Positions 1-18,204 of a stretch of 32,037 bases of DNA are shown piece by piece (within the stretch, counting starts at the first letter, position 1; each line of letters starts with the position of its first letter). The notes beneath the pieces are model-generated. The model ran no database searches and had not been told where the DNA came from. It saw only the letters and a list, made by a program, of their open reading frames with translations. The stretch spans positions 1-32,037 of the forward strand of contig JAAXGX010000205.1 in the NCBI GenBank assembly GCA_012271165.1. Reading direction: 5' to 3'. Origin of the DNA: Vicinamibacteraceae bacterium (GTDB lineage: Bacteria > Acidobacteriota > Vicinamibacteria > Vicinamibacterales > UBA8438). Both the position numbers and the translations under genes were made by a program.

Positions 1-1708
1 GCGACTTTCACCACAGGCTGTTAGGGGTTTCCCCTTGCGTGGGAGCCTAGCTTTGTGGGCGAACGGGATCTTCGACCAGTCCATCGTCTGGCCGACCTTG
101 GTCATGTCAAGGTCCACGACGTAGATGCTTCCGGCCTCGCAACACTCGGACAGCGGCCGTACCGCGTCGGAACACTGAAGAAGCGGTTCTCCACCGCTCG
201 CAGGCGGAGAATCGACGACCATTTGATGTCCGTTACGTTGTCGAAGCTCGGATTGACCCACAGGCGTGCGCCACGTGCCGCGAGAGCGCGGGGAAGGAGC
301 CCAAGATAATGATCATGACAGATCGTTGCCCCGGCTGTTGCACCGGCGAGTTCGAAGAGCGGGAGGGCGGCGCTCGGCTCCCAGTCTGGTCGCTCAAAGG
401 CAACGGCGTCGGCGGTGGAGTGCTTGACGTACACCCGGTACCGGCAGCCGTCAGGGTCGAAACGAAGAAGAACCTGCCAAGCGCGGCGGGTGGCATCGAC
501 GGCGGTGTCTACTGCACCCACGAGCAGCGGTGCGTTCAGGTCCGCCGCGAGCCTCCTCAGCGATTCGGCGCGTCCCCGGTCGGACGCTGATACGTAGCCT
601 TCGGGGAAGAGAACTAGGTCGACGGCCTCGCCGGCCAACGAATCGGCCGTCGGCACGTCCGGCTGCTGGGCGCCGGGACCGCTAGGCGGAACACCGTTCG
701 AGGATCTCGCTGCGACCTGGGGAAACACCAGTGCCACGCGCAGGCTCGACTCCGGTCGCGCGGACCGGCGCGGAACTTCCACCGTTGTTCGTCTGGGCCG
801 AGAACCGCCCTGATGGATCAGGTCCGAGAAACCCTTCCGGTCCTCCCTGCTGTCCAGATCAAGCGAGCACCAAACCCGGTCGCGCGCGTAGAGCCGCGCC
901 GTGGGCTGCACGCCTTCGATAGACGGGACGAGGTCGCGCAGTGTGTCGTACCAGGCTCGCTGTTCGTCGCGGAAGGGGGGATCGTTGTCCCTTGCGTCAT
1001 GTTGTTCGCAAAGCTCCAGCCAGCGTCTTGCGGCGAGCCCCAAGGGGTGCCCGTCCACGTACAAGGCGAGGGCAAGCTTCCGCGGGCGCGTGAAGTGCTG
1101 GCTCTCATCGAACTCGACGATGAATCCAGGGTCGGGAACCCAGTAGTCACAGGCTGCGAGCATCGGGGTACGCACGAACGTGCAGACGCCATAACCGCGA
1201 TATCCCTCCAGAACCCCGGCCACGTCTCGGAGAATCGGGTCGATTGAGGTTCCCGCGTACGCTGCGAGGCCCGTCGCCCATGGAAATCTGCGGTTGACCA
1301 CGCACGCCCGTAGATGCGCTCGAGAAGCTGCCCGACCCGGAACTTGCACGCGTGACACCGCTCCGAGTGCGGCTTGGAGGGGCTCGTACGCGCCCTCCTC
1401 ACCGTTGGACGGAGCACAACCGCTCCGGGACCGTCGCCGACGCTGCCGCAGCAGTCGCACTCGATGACGGCAAAGCCCCGGCGCCGAAGGAACTCGTTCG
1501 ACTCACGGCCTCCGGAGAATCGGTCCGAAGGCAGCAGCTCGCCCGCAGCGACCTGATGGGCCAGCGCAATCGTGTACTTCGGGGGAAAATGCTCGCCCTT
1601 CGTCGCCAAGCAGTAACCTCGACTCCTCCTTCCCGGTGGCATGCCGTCACGGATGATGAGCCGTATGGCTTCCTCGATGTGCGCGCCGGTGATGTGCTTC
1701 GGGATCAT
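1..1708 (-). pseudogene. Broken McrA-N-like / nuclease-like / nitrilase fusion gene, continues past the left edge
   Basis: Three consecutive blocks are read on the minus strand in changing frames. Block 1 (from ATG at 1708, about 135 residues) resembles the N-terminal head of ScoMcrA-type restriction proteins: a FPPKY motif, then FSGGRESNEFL and RGF, then Cys pairs (CDCC, CHACK) that could bind zinc. Block 2 lies in the frame of the 102..1460 ORF and contains DYWVPDPGFIVEFDESQHF, which looks like the acidic core of a PD-(D/E)XK nuclease, followed by DNDPPFRDEQRAWYDTLRD. Block 3 is a carbon-nitrogen hydrolase with a plausible Glu-Lys-Cys triad (FPEGY, YVKHS, TICHDH). Reading must change frame near 1300-1312 (YG|RACVVN) and again near 145-180, after ENRFFSV. 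Beyond that a stop-free frame reads SIYVVDLDMTKV, like the last nitrilase strand, up to base 1. Both shifts are of the -1 type (one base missing). The gene is therefore decayed, carries assembly errors, or is frameshifted by design. GC is lower than in the flanks. Blocks 1 and 3 are fairly secure; the nuclease assignment is inference. A defence role is suggested only by the domain types. Confidence 0.7.
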
Positions 1709-2639: not shown

Positions 2640-3773
2640 ATGCCGGTGCAGCGGGACAGCCAGCCGTCGAACGGCAGCGCGTACGTCGAGTTCGAGCGGG
2701 TCCGCAAGAGCTTCGACGGGCGGACCCTGGTGGTGCGCGACCTCGACCTGCAGATCCGCAAGGGCGAGTTCCTGACGCTCCTCGGGCCGTCCGGCTCCGG
2801 CAAGACGACCTGCCTGATGATGCTGGCGGGCTTCGAGACGCCGACGTCAGGCGCCATCCGCATCGACGGCAGCCCCATGCACCAGGTGCCTCCCCGGCGC
2901 CGCGGCATCGGCATGGTGTTCCAGAACTACGCGCTGTTCCCGCACATGACCGTGGGCGAGAATCTCGCCTTCCCGCTGGAGGTGCGCGGGCTCGATGCCG
3001 AGCGGCGCCGCGACCGGGTGCGCCGAGCACTGGCGCTCGTGCGGCTCGACGGCCTCGAGCAGCGGCGGCCGCGGCAGCTGTCGGGCGGCCAGCAGCAGCG
3101 GGTGGCCATCGCGCGCGCGCTGGTGTTCGAGCCGGACCTCGTCCTGATGGACGAGCCGCTGGGCGCGCTCGACCGGCGCCTCCGCGAGGAGCTGCAGTAC
3201 GAGATCCGGCGCATTCACCAGGACCTCGGCGTCACGGTCCTGTACGTCACCCACGACCAGCACGAGGCGATGGTGCTGTCCGACCGGGTGGCGGTCTTCC
3301 GGGCGGGGCGCATCGAGCAGATCGCGTCCCCCGAGGCGCTCTACGAAGAGCCGACGCGCTCGTTCGTCGCGCGCTTCATCGGCGCGAACAACCGCCTCAC
3401 CGGCCGGGTGACGGCCGTCAACGACGAGGGGATCTGCGACGTCGACGTCGGCGGACAGGTCGTCCGGGCGCTGCGTATCGCGCCGTGCGCGCCGGGCGAT
3501 GCGACGACGCTCTCGATCCGGCCCGAGCGGGTCGCCGTCGCGCCCGCCGCGGGCCTGTACACCAACGAGTTCGAGGCCCGCATCGAGGACATCACCTTCC
3601 TCGGCGACCACCTTCGGCTGCGGGTCACCGTCTGCGGGCGGTCGGACTTCATCGTCAAGATCCCCAACATCGTGGGCCACGGCGCGGTGCTCGAGGGCGA
3701 CCGCATCCGCATCGGCTGGACGCCGACCGATTGCCGCGTGCTGAACCCGGACGAAGAGGAGGAGCCGGCTTGA
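2640..3773 (+). CDS. potA: ABC transporter ATP-binding protein, PotA type (polyamine importer)
   Basis: This is the cytoplasmic ATPase that powers polyamine-type import, 377 residues long. Visible in order are Walker A GPSGSGKTT (about residues 49-57), Q-loop FQNYALFPHMT, signature LSGGQQQR, Walker B LVLMDEPLGALD and switch His in VTHDQHEAM. A C-terminal TOBE-like region follows (SIRPERVAV near residue 290 onward). ATG 2640 (MPVQRDS) is chosen because it puts the first strand YVEFERVRKSF at the usual distance; the longer ORF start at 2490 overlaps the HAD start antisense. The stop overlaps the potential TTG of the next gene, so the two are translationally coupled. The ATPase role is certain; the substrate (spermidine/putrescine or a similar cation) is inferred from family and operon. 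Confidence 0.93.
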   Translation: MPVQRDSQPSNGSAYVEFERVRKSFDGRTLVVRDLDLQIRKGEFLTLLGPSGSGKTTCLMMLAGFETPTSGAIRIDGSPMHQVPPRRRGIGMVFQNYALFPHMTVGENLAFPLEVRGLDAERRRDRVRRALALVRLDGLEQRRPRQLSGGQQQRVAIARALVFEPDLVLMDEPLGALDRRLREELQYEIRRIHQDLGVTVLYVTHDQHEAMVLSDRVAVFRAGRIEQIASPEALYEEPTRSFVARFIGANNRLTGRVTAVNDEGICDVDVGGQVVRALRIAPCAPGDATTLSIRPERVAVAPAAGLYTNEFEARIEDITFLGDHLRLRVTVCGRSDFIVKIPNIVGHGAVLEGDRIRIGWTPTDCRVLNPDEEEEPA

Positions 3774-12530: not shown

Positions 12531-15353
12531 ATGTCGCACCGCAACGTCACATTCACGTCCCACGCGCGCGGCGCGGCGCTGCTGGCGGCCTGGCTGCTGG
12601 TCCAGCCGGGGCCTGCGCGCGGCCAGCCCGGCGCCGATGCGGCGGGGCCGGGGCCGCAGGCGGGTGTTGCGGTGCAGCCCTTCGTCAACCTCAGCGGCCG
12701 CGCCGCCGACGCGTGGATCGGCACGGGGATCGCCGCCTCGCTGTTCGCCGACCTCAACCCTGCGGGCACCACCGCCCAGCCGCGCTGGCTGGTGCAGGGC
12801 AGCTACCAGCGGGTGGGCGACAGCCTCCGCATCACCGCGGAGCTCGTCGACCCGGCGTCAACGGCGGTCATCGCGGGCGCGCGGGCGGACGGCGAGCTGT
12901 CGGCGCTCCTGGCGCTCCAGGACGCGCTGGCCGATCAGCTCGCCGACGCGCTGCAGGCGGCGCACGGATTGCCCCCGGGCCGGGCGGAGCCCCGCGGAGC
13001 CGGGGCGCCGGCCGCCGCCGCCCCGGCGGGCGCGGGGCCGCTGCGGGCCGCCCCGCAGGCAGTCCCGCCCGGTGAACGCGTTCCGCCCGCGCGGGCAGGT
13101 GCGCCGGCCGCCGGCCCCGGGGCATTCGGCGGGCTGGCGCTGAACATGACCGCGGGTATCGATCCGCCGCCGCCCGTCCCCCCCGAGGTCGTCTCGCGCA
13201 ACGCCGCGGGCAACATGACCATGCGGGCCGTCCGGCTCGACGCTCCGTTGCAGCTCGACGGCCGGCTGGACGAAGAGGTGTACCTCACGGTGCCGCCCAT
13301 CACGGACTTCGTCCAGCAGGAGCCCGACACCGGGGCGGTCGCGACCGAACGGACCGAGGTCTGGGTCATGTTCGACGGCGACACCCTCTACGTCGGGGCG
13401 CGCTGCCTGGTCTCCGAGGCGGGCCGCGTCGTGGCCAACGAGATGAAGCGGGACAGCCCCGGCATGTTCGGCAACGACAGCCTCGCGGTCATCCTCGACA
13501 CGTACTACGACCGGCGCAACGGGTTCATCTTCATCACGAACTCGCTGGGCGGGATCTTCGACGCGACGGTCACCAACGAGCGGACCCCGAACCTGGACTG
13601 GAACACCGTCTGGGACGTGCGCACCAGCCGCTTCGAGGACGGCTGGACGGTCGAGCTGGCCATCCCGTTCAAGTCGCTGCGCTACCGGACCGGCGCGGCG
13701 CAGCTCTGGGGCATCAACATGCAGCGGCGGGCGGTGTGGAAGAACGAGCAGTCGTTCCTGACCCCCATCCCCGCCGCGTTCGGCATGACCGGGATGTTCA
13801 GGGTCTCGCTGGCCGCCACGCTGACGGGGCTGGAGGTGCCCTCGGCGGGCATGCCGGTCGAGCTAAAGCCGTACGCCATCTCCGACGTGACGAGCGACTT
13901 CGCGGCGCCGACGCCCTTCACGAACCAGCTCGGGGGCGACGCGGGCGTCGACCTCAAGCTCGGCGTCACCCAGGGCCTGACCGCCGACCTGACCTACAAC
14001 ACCGATTTCGCGCAGGTCGAGGTGGACGAGCGGCAGGTCAACCTGACCCGCTTCAGCCTCTTCTTCCCGGAGAAACGCGAGTTCTTCCTCGAGGGGCAGG
14101 GCATCTTCGACTTCGGGGGCGGCCAGCGCCCCGTGCCCAACCGCTTCTTCATCACGGGCGAGCGCTTCCCGGTCGACGCCCCGATCCTCTTCTTCAGCCG
14201 CCGCATCGGGCTCGAGAGCGGCCAGACGGTACCGATCACCGGCGGCGGCCGGCTGACCGGCAAGGCCGGGGCGTTCAGCCTCGGCCTGCTCAACGTGCAG
14301 ACGGGCGAAACCCCGTCCGGCAGCGTCGCGCCGACGAACTTCACCGTCGTCCGCGTGAAGCGCGACGTGCTGCGGCGCAGCAGCATCGGCGGCATGTTCA
14401 CCCGGCGCTCGCTCTCGACCCGCGGCGACGGCGCGAACCAGGTGTACGGGGTAGACGGCGTGTTCTCGTTCTACGAGGCGCTGAACTTCAACACGTACAT
14501 CGCGCGCACCGACACGCCGGGGTTGCCCGACGACGACCTGAGCTACCGGACGGAGCTGTACTACGAGGGCGACCGCTGGGGCTTCACCGCCGATCACCTG
14601 CGCGTCGGCACCAACTTCAATCCCGAGATCGGCTTCGTCCGCCGCTACGGCTTCCGACGCAACTTCGGCCAGTTCCGCTTCAGCCCGCGCCCGCAGGGCA
14701 TCGACGCCGTGCGCAAGTTCACCTGGGAAGCCAGCATCGACCACATCACGGACGGCGCGGGCCGCATGGAGACGCGGCTCCAGCGCGGGCAGTTCGTCAC
14801 CGAGCTCGAGACCGGCGACCTGCTGTTCGCGCTGGCGACCGACAACTACGAGTTCCTCGTGGAGCCGTTCCAGATCGCGCCCGACGTCACGATTCCGGTC
14901 GGCGGGTACTCGTTCCTGAACTATCGCGCGGGATACTCGCTGGCCCGGCAGCGAGGCGTCAGCGGCGGGGTCGCCATCGACTTCGGGCGTTTCTACGGCG
15001 GCGAGAAGACGACGCTCAGCTACTACCAGGGCCGGCTCACGCTGACCCCGCAACTGACGCTCGAGCCGAACATCTCACTGCACTGGATCGACCTGCCCGA
15101 GGGCAGCTTCACGACCGAGCTGGTGTCGACGCGCTTCACCTACACCCTGTCGCCGCGCATGTTCGTGGCCGCGCTGCTGCAGTACAACTCGGCGGACAAC
15201 GCGATCGGCAGCAACGTCCGCTTCCGCTGGGAGTATCAGCCCGGCAGCGAGCTGTTCGTCGTCTACACCGACGAGCGCGATACGCTGAACCCGCGCCCGT
15301 TCCTGCTGAACCGGGCGTTCGTCGTCAAGCTGACGCGGCTGTTCAGGTTCTGA
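12531..15353 (+). CDS. Outer-membrane protein: TolB-N-like domain, CBM9-like domain, DUF5916-type barrel (copy 1)
   Basis: This 940-residue exported protein starts with MSHRNVTFTSHARGAALLAA, a signal peptide ending near ARG-QPG. Residues 45-150 (VAVQPFVNLS, DAWIGTGIAASLFADL, WLVQGSYQRVG, LQDALADQLADAL) resemble the TolB N-terminal/FlgO-like domain. A Pro/Ala/Gly linker covers about 150-215. Residues 225-400 fit a CBM9-like beta-sandwich (LDGRLDEEVYLTVPPITDF). The rest, from NTDFAQVEVDERQVNLTRFSLFFPEKREFFLEG, is a DUF5916-type beta-barrel ending in LTRLFRF, the terminal Phe expected of BAM-inserted porins. The substrate is unknown; glycan or peptide handling at the cell surface is only a guess. 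There is no Shine-Dalgarno before ATG. It is the first copy of a tandem pair, with about nine residues in ten identical to copy 2 by eye. Confidence 0.83.
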   Translation: MSHRNVTFTSHARGAALLAAWLLVQPGPARGQPGADAAGPGPQAGVAVQPFVNLSGRAADAWIGTGIAASLFADLNPAGTTAQPRWLVQGSYQRVGDSLRITAELVDPASTAVIAGARADGELSALLALQDALADQLADALQAAHGLPPGRAEPRGAGAPAAAAPAGAGPLRAAPQAVPPGERVPPARAGAPAAGPGAFGGLALNMTAGIDPPPPVPPEVVSRNAAGNMTMRAVRLDAPLQLDGRLDEEVYLTVPPITDFVQQEPDTGAVATERTEVWVMFDGDTLYVGARCLVSEAGRVVANEMKRDSPGMFGNDSLAVILDTYYDRRNGFIFITNSLGGIFDATVTNERTPNLDWNTVWDVRTSRFEDGWTVELAIPFKSLRYRTGAAQLWGINMQRRAVWKNEQSFLTPIPAAFGMTGMFRVSLAATLTGLEVPSAGMPVELKPYAISDVTSDFAAPTPFTNQLGGDAGVDLKLGVTQGLTADLTYNTDFAQVEVDERQVNLTRFSLFFPEKREFFLEGQGIFDFGGGQRPVPNRFFITGERFPVDAPILFFSRRIGLESGQTVPITGGGRLTGKAGAFSLGLLNVQTGETPSGSVAPTNFTVVRVKRDVLRRSSIGGMFTRRSLSTRGDGANQVYGVDGVFSFYEALNFNTYIARTDTPGLPDDDLSYRTELYYEGDRWGFTADHLRVGTNFNPEIGFVRRYGFRRNFGQFRFSPRPQGIDAVRKFTWEASIDHITDGAGRMETRLQRGQFVTELETGDLLFALATDNYEFLVEPFQIAPDVTIPVGGYSFLNYRAGYSLARQRGVSGGVAIDFGRFYGGEKTTLSYYQGRLTLTPQLTLEPNISLHWIDLPEGSFTTELVSTRFTYTLSPRMFVAALLQYNSADNAIGSNVRFRWEYQPGSELFVVYTDERDTLNPRPFLLNRAFVVKLTRLFRF

Positions 15354-15453: not shown

Positions 15454-18204
15454 ATGTCGCACCGCAACGTCACATTCACGTCGCTCGTGCGCGGCGCGGC
15501 GCTGCTGGCGGCGTGGCTGCTCGTCCAGCCGGCGCCCGCGCGCGCCCAGCCCGGCGCCGGCGCGCCGGTCCCCGCCCCGCGCGCCGGCGTCGCCGTCCAG
15601 CCGTTCGCCAACCTGAGCGGTGACGCCGCCGACGCGTGGATCGGCGCCGGGATCGCGGCCTCGGTATTCGCGGACCTCAACGCCGCGGGGAGCACCGCCG
15701 ACCCGCGCTGGCTGGTGCAGGGCAGCTACCAGCGGGTGGGCGGCCGGCTCCGGATCACCGCGGAGCTCGTCGACGCAGCCTCGGCAACCGTCGTCGCGGC
15801 CGCGCGGGTGGACGGCGAGCTGTCGGCGCTCCTGGCGCTCCAGGACGCGCTGGCCGACCAGTTGGCCGACGCGCTGGACGCGGCGGAGGGGCCGCCGGCG
15901 CGCCCGCCGGCGCCCCGCGCAGCCGGCATCCCGGCGGGCACGGATCCCGCGCCGGCCGCGGGTGCCGGGACCTTCGCCGGGCTGGCGCTGAACCCGACCG
16001 CGGCCATCGACGGCCCGCCGCCGCCGGTGCCGCCCGAGGTCGTCTCGCGCGACGCCGCGGGCAACATGACCATGCGGGCCGTCCGGCTCGACGCTCCGTT
16101 GCAGCTCGACGGCCGGCTCGACGAGGAGGTGTACCTGACGGTGCCGCCAATCACGGACTTCGTTCAGCAGGAGCCCGACACCGGGGAGGTCGCGACCGAA
16201 CGGACCGAGGTCTGGGTCATGTTCGACCGCGACACCTTCTACGTCGCCGCGCGCTGCCTGGTCTCCGAGCCGGGCCGCGTCGTGGCCAACGAGATGAAGC
16301 GCGACAGCCCCGGCATGTTCGGCAACGACAGCCTCGCGGTCATCCTCGACACGTACTACGACCGGCGCAACGGCAACATCTTCATCATGAACGCGCTGGG
16401 CGCGATGGTCGACATGACGGTGACCAGCGAGCGGACGCCGAACGTCGACTGGAACACGGTCTGGGACGTGCGCACCAGCCGCTTCGAGGACGGCTGGATC
16501 GTCGAGATGGCGATCCCGTTCAAGTCGCTCCGCTACCGCCCCGGCCCGGTCCAGCTCTGGGGCATCAACATGCAGCGCCGGGCGGCCTGGAAGAACGAGC
16601 AGTCGTTCCTCACACCCATCCCCGCCGCGTTCGGCATGACCAGCATGTTCAGGGTGTCGCTGGCCGCCACGCTCACGGGCCTCGAGGTGCCCTCGTCGGG
16701 CATGCCGATCGAGATGAAGCCGTACGCGATCTCCGACGTGACGAGCGACTTCGCGGCGGCCACGCCCTTCTCGAACCAGCTCGGCGGCGACGCCGGCGTC
16801 GACCTCAAGCTCGGCGTCACCCAGGGCCTGACCGCGGACCTGACCTACAACACCGATTTCGCGCAGGTCGAGGTGGACGAGCGGCAGGTCAACCTGACCC
16901 GCTTCAGCCTGTTCTTTCCCGAGAAGCGCGAGTTCTTTCTCGAGGGCCAGGGCATCTTCGACTTCGGCGGCGGCCGGCGCCCGGACCCGAATCGCTTCTT
17001 CGTCACCGGCGAGGGGTTCGCGGTCGACGCGCCGATCCTCTTCTTCAGCCGTCGCATCGGGCTCGAGGGCGGCCAGACCGTGCCCATCCGGGGCGGCGGC
17101 CGGCTGACGGGCAAGACCGGGCCGTTCAGCATCGGGCTGCTCAACGTCCAGACGGGCAACAGCCCCGCCGGCGACGCCGCGCCGACCAACTTCACCGTCC
17201 TCCGCGTCAAGCGCGACGTGCTGCGGCGCAGCAGCATCGGCGGCATGTTCACCCGGCGCTCGCTGGCGAGCGGGGGCGACGGCCCCAACCAGGTGTACGG
17301 CGTCGACGGCGTGTTCTCCTTCCACGAGGCGCTGAACTTCAATACGTACCTCGCGCGCACCGACACCCCGGGCGTGCGCGACGACAACCTGAGCTACCGG
17401 ACGGAGCTCTACTACGAGGGCGACCGCTGGGCCTTCACCGCCGACCACCTGCGCGTCGGCGCCAACTTCAATCCCGAGATCGGCTTCGTCCGACGCTACG
17501 GCTTCCGGCGCAACTTCGGCATGTTCCGCTTCAGCCCGCGCCCGCAGGGCATCGATGCCGTGCGGAAGTTCACGTGGGAGGCCAGCGTCGACCACATCAC
17601 CGACGGCGCGGGCCGCGTCGAGACGCGGCTCCAGCGCGGGCAGTTCATCACCGAACTCGAGACCGGCGATCTGCTGTTCGCGCTGGCCACGGACAACTAC
17701 GAGTTCCTGACCGAACCGTTCCAGATCGCGCCGGACGTCACGATTCCGGTCGGCGGGTACTCGTTCCTGAACTACCGCGCGGGGTACTCGATGGCGCAGC
17801 AGCGGCCCCTCAGCGGCGGGGTCGCCGTCGACTTCGGGAGGTTCTTCGGCGGCGAGAGGACGACCCTCAGCTACTACCGGGGCCGCATCACGCTGACGCC
17901 GCAACTGACGCTCGAGCCGACGATCTCACTCAACTGGATAGACCTGCCGGAGGGCAGCTTCACGACCGAGCTGGTGTCGACGCGCGTCACCTACACCCTG
18001 ACGCCGCGGATGTTCGTGGCCGCGCTGCTCCAGTACAACTCGGCGGACAACGCCATCGGCAGCAACGTCCGCTTCCGCTGGGAGTATCAGCCGGGGAGCG
18101 AGCTGTTCGTCGTCTACACCGACGAGCGCGACACGCTGAACCCGCGTCCGTTCCTGCTGAACCGGGCGTTCGTCGTCAAGCTGACGCGGCTGTTCAGGTT
18201 CTGA
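15454..18204 (+). CDS. Outer-membrane protein: TolB-N-like domain, CBM9-like domain, DUF5916-type barrel (copy 2)
   Basis: This 916-residue paralogue of the preceding barrel gene has the same order: signal peptide (MSHRNVTFTSLVRGAALLAA), TolB-N-like domain with VAVQPFANLSGDAADAWIG, Pro/Ala linker, CBM9-like sandwich and barrel ending LTRLFRF. It is 24 residues shorter, nearly all in the linker. The barrel is strongly conserved; many changes fall in the linker and in a few patches such as GNIFIMNALGAMVDMTV versus GFIFITNSLGGIFDATV, which may alter ligand contacts. The start context GCTGCTC-ATG has no ribosome site, and upstream lies the NIPSNAP relic, so expression may depend on read-through from copy 1. 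Convergent with NIPSNAP across a hairpin. Confidence 0.83.
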   Translation: MSHRNVTFTSLVRGAALLAAWLLVQPAPARAQPGAGAPVPAPRAGVAVQPFANLSGDAADAWIGAGIAASVFADLNAAGSTADPRWLVQGSYQRVGGRLRITAELVDAASATVVAAARVDGELSALLALQDALADQLADALDAAEGPPARPPAPRAAGIPAGTDPAPAAGAGTFAGLALNPTAAIDGPPPPVPPEVVSRDAAGNMTMRAVRLDAPLQLDGRLDEEVYLTVPPITDFVQQEPDTGEVATERTEVWVMFDRDTFYVAARCLVSEPGRVVANEMKRDSPGMFGNDSLAVILDTYYDRRNGNIFIMNALGAMVDMTVTSERTPNVDWNTVWDVRTSRFEDGWIVEMAIPFKSLRYRPGPVQLWGINMQRRAAWKNEQSFLTPIPAAFGMTSMFRVSLAATLTGLEVPSSGMPIEMKPYAISDVTSDFAAATPFSNQLGGDAGVDLKLGVTQGLTADLTYNTDFAQVEVDERQVNLTRFSLFFPEKREFFLEGQGIFDFGGGRRPDPNRFFVTGEGFAVDAPILFFSRRIGLEGGQTVPIRGGGRLTGKTGPFSIGLLNVQTGNSPAGDAAPTNFTVLRVKRDVLRRSSIGGMFTRRSLASGGDGPNQVYGVDGVFSFHEALNFNTYLARTDTPGVRDDNLSYRTELYYEGDRWAFTADHLRVGANFNPEIGFVRRYGFRRNFGMFRFSPRPQGIDAVRKFTWEASVDHITDGAGRVETRLQRGQFITELETGDLLFALATDNYEFLTEPFQIAPDVTIPVGGYSFLNYRAGYSMAQQRPLSGGVAVDFGRFFGGERTTLSYYRGRITLTPQLTLEPTISLNWIDLPEGSFTTELVSTRVTYTLTPRMFVAALLQYNSADNAIGSNVRFRWEYQPGSELFVVYTDERDTLNPRPFLLNRAFVVKLTRLFRF

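Follow-up and report, generated by a model that had tools for sequence, protein, structure and literature searches.

Introduction

The type IV restriction enzyme ScoMcrA (Sco4631) starts with an N-terminal part that is called the 'head' in the literature and that is followed by SBD, SRA and HNH domains (PMC7461809). In DRT1, a UG1 reverse transcriptase with a nitrilase on the C-terminal side, the nitrilase acts as an effector that requires a tetramer and brings about abortive infection; the same paper describes nitrilases as uncommon in antiphage defence (PMC13275509). Other comparable proteins are the DUF559/Vsr-like nucleases and AbaSI, which carry a D...E-x-D...H motif, and DUF7255 (PF23913), a function-unknown family for which our searches found no literature.

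Here we analyse a gene at the start of a 32,037-nucleotide stretch of DNA from a Vicinamibacteraceae bacterium (the window; contig JAAXGX010000205.1 of assembly GCA_012271165.1), whose MAG comprises 3.7 Mb in 217 contigs and is 71.8% complete. The gene joins a ScoMcrA-type head, a nuclease-like core and a nitrilase, and we regard it as a broken copy from a modular family whose most likely role is the defence of cells against invading DNA.

Results

The gene runs from 1708 down to 1 on the minus strand, is spread over three frames and encodes, end to end, a ScoMcrA-type head, a core with the motifs EFDESQHF and RDEQRAWYD, and a Glu-Lys-Cys nitrilase (Table 1), the very order put forward in the original prediction, which intact relatives encode in one frame. 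Chance reading frames were ruled out as the source of these blocks, as relatives keep all of them: proteins 44-69% identical align in order to the window's core and nitrilase at E-values as low as 2e-164, well outside what chance would give, and the head is common to relatives as well. Two simple frameshifts had been envisaged at the frame breaks; DNA alignment with relatives retained the first as a single missing base pair at 1307/1306 and replaced the second by an out-of-frame deletion of more than 90 bp (91-94 bp, at about 173/174), which costs the nitrilase about 31 residues. Either lesion would inactivate the gene. The start of the window is also the end of the contig (C122), which takes most of the C-terminal part of about 180 residues present in intact relatives. 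Because of the two lesions and this truncation, with relatives matching the remainder, the window copy is a broken or mis-assembled version of a real fusion gene, the lesions being due either to real decay (a pseudogene) or to assembly error near the contig end. Elsewhere in the window, two large DUF5916 proteins are encoded next to each other (12531-15353 and 15454-18204), downstream of an ABC transporter cluster (ATPase at 2643-3773).

Table 1. Features of the fusion gene in the window.
Feature	Position	Strand	Basis
ScoMcrA-type N-terminal head, gene residues 1-89	1442..1708	-	Alignment with 33 other heads; profile match to 5zmm_A
Cys knuckle HSERCHACK and first core helix, in the head's frame	1307..1369	-	HxERCxxCK nearly invariant in 45 cores
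Nuclease-like core (D...EFDESQH, 1148-1095; RDEQRAW, 971-951)	777..1304	-	Invariant residues; DUF559 match
Nitrilase (CN_hydrolase) domain	159..749	-	Pfam score; invariant triad
Nitrilase triad codons	Glu 602-600, Lys 425-423, Cys 320-318	-	All three kept
Rest of nitrilase end and start of C-terminal tail, third frame, cut by contig end	1..173	-	tblastn of relatives

One genome per species was scanned, which yielded 79 related loci from bacteria and archaea. Head, core and nitrilase share one open frame in 11 of them (L021, L022, L023, L027, L029, L030, L031, L032, L033, L035 and L045), each ending in a conserved tail some 180 residues long, and their hosts include Gammaproteobacteria, Nitrospira, Acidobacteriota, Latescibacterota, Dadabacteria, Gemmatimonadota and an Aenigmatarchaeon. 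At L025, L026, L039 and L088, two genes with a few bases between them encode core and nitrilase; homologues that always occur as separate genes would have refuted the original prediction, and we found that most relatives are fused and that both states occur. Each of 22 genomes contained a single core, and the distribution of the core is patchy, as the window's own genome was the only one among 297 genomes of its phylum to match over the core. Intact copies were sought in that genome and phylum, where matches besides the window copy were confined to the nitrilase region, and a plasmid search with the whole fusion protein as query returned just 13% coverage, in its nitrilase part, and no core. 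The core was likewise absent from the viral contig and phage collections searched, and we count its absence from all three kinds of collection against a defence reading. Broken copies occur in several places (the window, L028, L038, L056, L082 and L087).

A profile of 34 heads retrieved ScoMcrA as its top solved structure (5zmm_A, residues 4-96; E 1.6e-5), in line with the McrA-N-like head that had been proposed. The likeness to ScoMcrA concerns this N-terminal part: in the family it is followed by a PD-(D/E)XK-like core and then a nitrilase, and Pfam detected no SBD, SRA or HNH domain in ten relatives. The head is optional, some members being without it.

Across 45 diverse cores, D75, E86, D88, E89, H92, R97, D128, P131, RDEQRAWYD (134-142), D146 and R159 are invariant, while C5, C8, C121 and C168 are nearly so and suggest a putative zinc site. 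Profile-profile comparison by hhalign against a DUF559 alignment built in the present analysis gave an E-value of 8.1e-6 and placed D75/E86/D88/H92 on D49/E60/D62/H66, in the same order, versus E-values of 0.43 and 0.31 for two unrelated control profiles; AbaSI is a weak sequence match over the same motif (0.12). The core differs from DUF559/Vsr-like nucleases and AbaSI in having E-x-D-E-x-Q-H, a long insert before RDEQRAWYD and a Cys knuckle, and in lacking an SRA domain. An AlphaFold model of the core is confident (pLDDT 95.3), and Foldseek comparison with the PDB returned nothing at E 0.001, RecE, PA endonuclease and HindIII being non-significant matches, a result that we count against the assignment. 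The nuclease call is therefore based on sequence profiles, and it is on these and not on fold comparison that we take the core to be a divergent PD-(D/E)XK nuclease, in line with the nuclease-like core originally proposed. DUF7255 is the best Pfam match of the core (20.7 bits for the window; between 11.5 and 26.4 bits across ten relatives), and a true member of that family (L140) reads VELDVEQHF...RAFCDYLRDV, yet every core scores below the DUF7255 gathering score of 27 bits. A single protein at L097 (7731-8957) appears to carry two tandem core copies.

In the nitrilase and its ALTERNATIVES, the Glu-Lys-Cys triad (E76, K134, C169) of what we term type I is invariant in 17 sequences. Pfam CN_hydrolase scores lie above the gathering cut-off of 23.2 bits in the window (43.4), L021 (34.3) and L035 (59.6), and just under it in L045 (20.9). 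The full-length type I model (pLDDT 88.6) has nitrilases and amidases as best Foldseek matches (E down to 2.4e-12), and among the 50 matches listed for the whole protein there were nitrilases only. The nitrilase with a complete triad that had been predicted is therefore borne out, with the correction that the full-triad enzyme is one among several partner modules.

The core is constant across the 79 loci while its partner is swapped, either fused to it or encoded next door; many stand-alone cores are directly followed by a partner-module gene that overlaps them or lies a few bases away. With family models built in the present analysis, a partner was assigned in 59 of the 79 loci (type I, 19; type II, 16; type III, 18; type IV, 6), the other 20 being cut by contig ends or ending in a different tail or none that was recognised. 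Type II is similar to type I over 167 columns (E 2.6e-4), as type III is to type II (E 3.3e-5); types II and III both keep the invariant Lys and a Cys-[YH]-Asp motif, with Gly or Ala in place of the type I Glu. Since modules of types II and III are without the nitrilase peptides of the search pattern and were found via the core, we infer that their pairing with it is no search artefact. The core tree implies about 20 switches of partner type (minimum 4; shuffling 27.8), a rough figure because support inside the tree is weak; partners are clustered on this tree, yet have been exchanged repeatedly.

These residue patterns bear on a role in abortive infection, whereby head and core would serve chiefly to detect foreign DNA while the nitrilase would kill by depleting an essential amide- or amine-bearing metabolite, as in DRT1. 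Such an account draws on the complete and invariant type I triad and on the need for the nitrilase effector in DRT1 (PMC13275509), but the catalytic Glu is missing from types II and III, which keep the nuclease residues unchanged, so that hydrolysis cannot be the common function, and we consider the account possible, though unlikely. The invariance of the nuclease residues, while two partner groups lose the Glu, suggests that the nuclease is the catalytic part common to the family, and the intact triad suggests real hydrolysis by the type I nitrilase, as proposed for DRT1. The likeness to DRT1 lies in the C-terminal position of the nitrilase, which in L035 has a weak PADLOC Drt1a match (0.013); the family has a head and nuclease instead of a reverse transcriptase, a domain for which neither Pfam nor PADLOC gave a match in the window or the relatives searched.

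The type IV genes L048:727-1587, L070:8096-8878, L072:1288-2151 and L094:5546-6319 share conserved LFS/CGE/LNP motifs and look nitrilase-like by eye; as nitrilases they found no support by hhalign (0.3 versus type I; a partial 0.0057 versus type II). L036:3912-5522 and L037:7833-10172 each encode a close relative of the window's core joined to an unrelated C-terminal region, the end of which, in L037, is weakly like uracil-DNA glycosylase (E 0.046). At L059, L064, L074, L078, L083 and L091, and among the downstream genes at L055 and L076, the same core is followed, by fusion or in the next gene, by further partner modules in which no domain was recognised. The type III genes L040:1373-2293 and L041:8584-9549 are convergent with the core gene, on the opposite strand, rather than downstream on the same strand.

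Several loci adjoin known defence genes: brxA, brxB, brxC and brxL of BREX (L088), a DSR1-type (L027) or ThsA-like (L023) SIR2 protein, a type IIG restriction-methylation enzyme (L026), PglZ and DrmD of DISARM type (L068), a type IV restriction enzyme with Mokosh-like proteins (L080), DpdJ (L031) and a TIR-like protein (L035). Proteins encoded by the three nearest genes per side at 20 loci (118 proteins) matched 374 PADLOC models at E 1e-5 versus 55 for distant stretches of the same contigs (117 proteins), a comparison that is suggestive of a defence link and carries no formal statistic, because the counts include partly redundant models and come from a simple gene caller. Other copies, including that of the window, sit among housekeeping genes, which we count against the defence reading. 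The defence role, pure inference when first proposed, has thus gained support from neighbourhoods.

An enzyme of DNA repair or metabolism without a defence role would fit the housekeeping neighbourhoods, as well as the weak glycosylase likeness of the L037 tail, and Vsr-type nucleases include a repair enzyme. The patchy presence of the family, its distribution over unrelated phyla, the swapping of modules, the adjoining defence genes and the several broken copies all speak against such a role, which we hold to be improbable.

The neighbourhood of L031 also bears on modification-dependent restriction, whereby the nitrilase-like modules would recognise or process amide- or nitrile-bearing phage bases and license the nuclease. 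The presence of DpdJ there, the head in common with a modification-dependent enzyme, the weak likeness of the core to AbaSI, module swapping as expected for specificity parts and the conservation of Cys and Lys without the Glu are all consistent with it, and 7-cyano or 7-amido deazaguanine does occur in phages (PMC6884629). DNA binding by any nitrilase fold is, however, purely putative, and we judge this mode of restriction highly improbable. Specifically, nitrilase-fold modules might act as chemical readers, in which the Glu-less Cys and Lys would capture a modified base, the full triad would hydrolyse it and the nuclease would cut; we give this version very little credence, and if true, such modules would form a swappable-sensor class of modification-dependent restriction.

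Discussion

We favour defence against invading DNA as the function of the family, which is probably a new modular defence protein because it is often found beside virus-defence genes. Its constant unit consists of the optional ScoMcrA-type head, the Cys knuckle and a probable DUF559/Vsr-like PD-(D/E)XK nuclease, and a swappable nitrilase-superfamily module is joined to it, either within one protein or as the gene next door. For the DNA cutting, the signal sensed, the nitrilase substrate and the coupling of the parts, we infer the following: head and core would engage foreign or modified DNA, which the nuclease would then cut or nick; in type I, with its full triad, the nitrilase would be switched on as a second effector, hydrolysing a C-N bond of a small molecule, and in the Glu-less variants the module may serve as a sensor or regulator.

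Each part of the protein is known. Their combination, and the family with its swapped modules, appear to have gone undescribed within the literature searched. In PADLOC no model matched the whole of the fusion or of the core: the window gave no match and relatives just weak partial ones. The papers searched, with most subscription journals outside their scope, held no nuclease-nitrilase defence protein, so the premise that no described system has this domain order still stands for the PADLOC models and papers covered. If the family defends, nitrilases would be a recurring defence part across a wide bacterial and archaeal range, and the family would give defence-finding software a missing model. 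Cultured hosts (Neobacillus, Anoxybacillus, Geobacillus, Desulfacinum and Cupriavidus) are among those that carry the family, which makes the defence idea directly testable.
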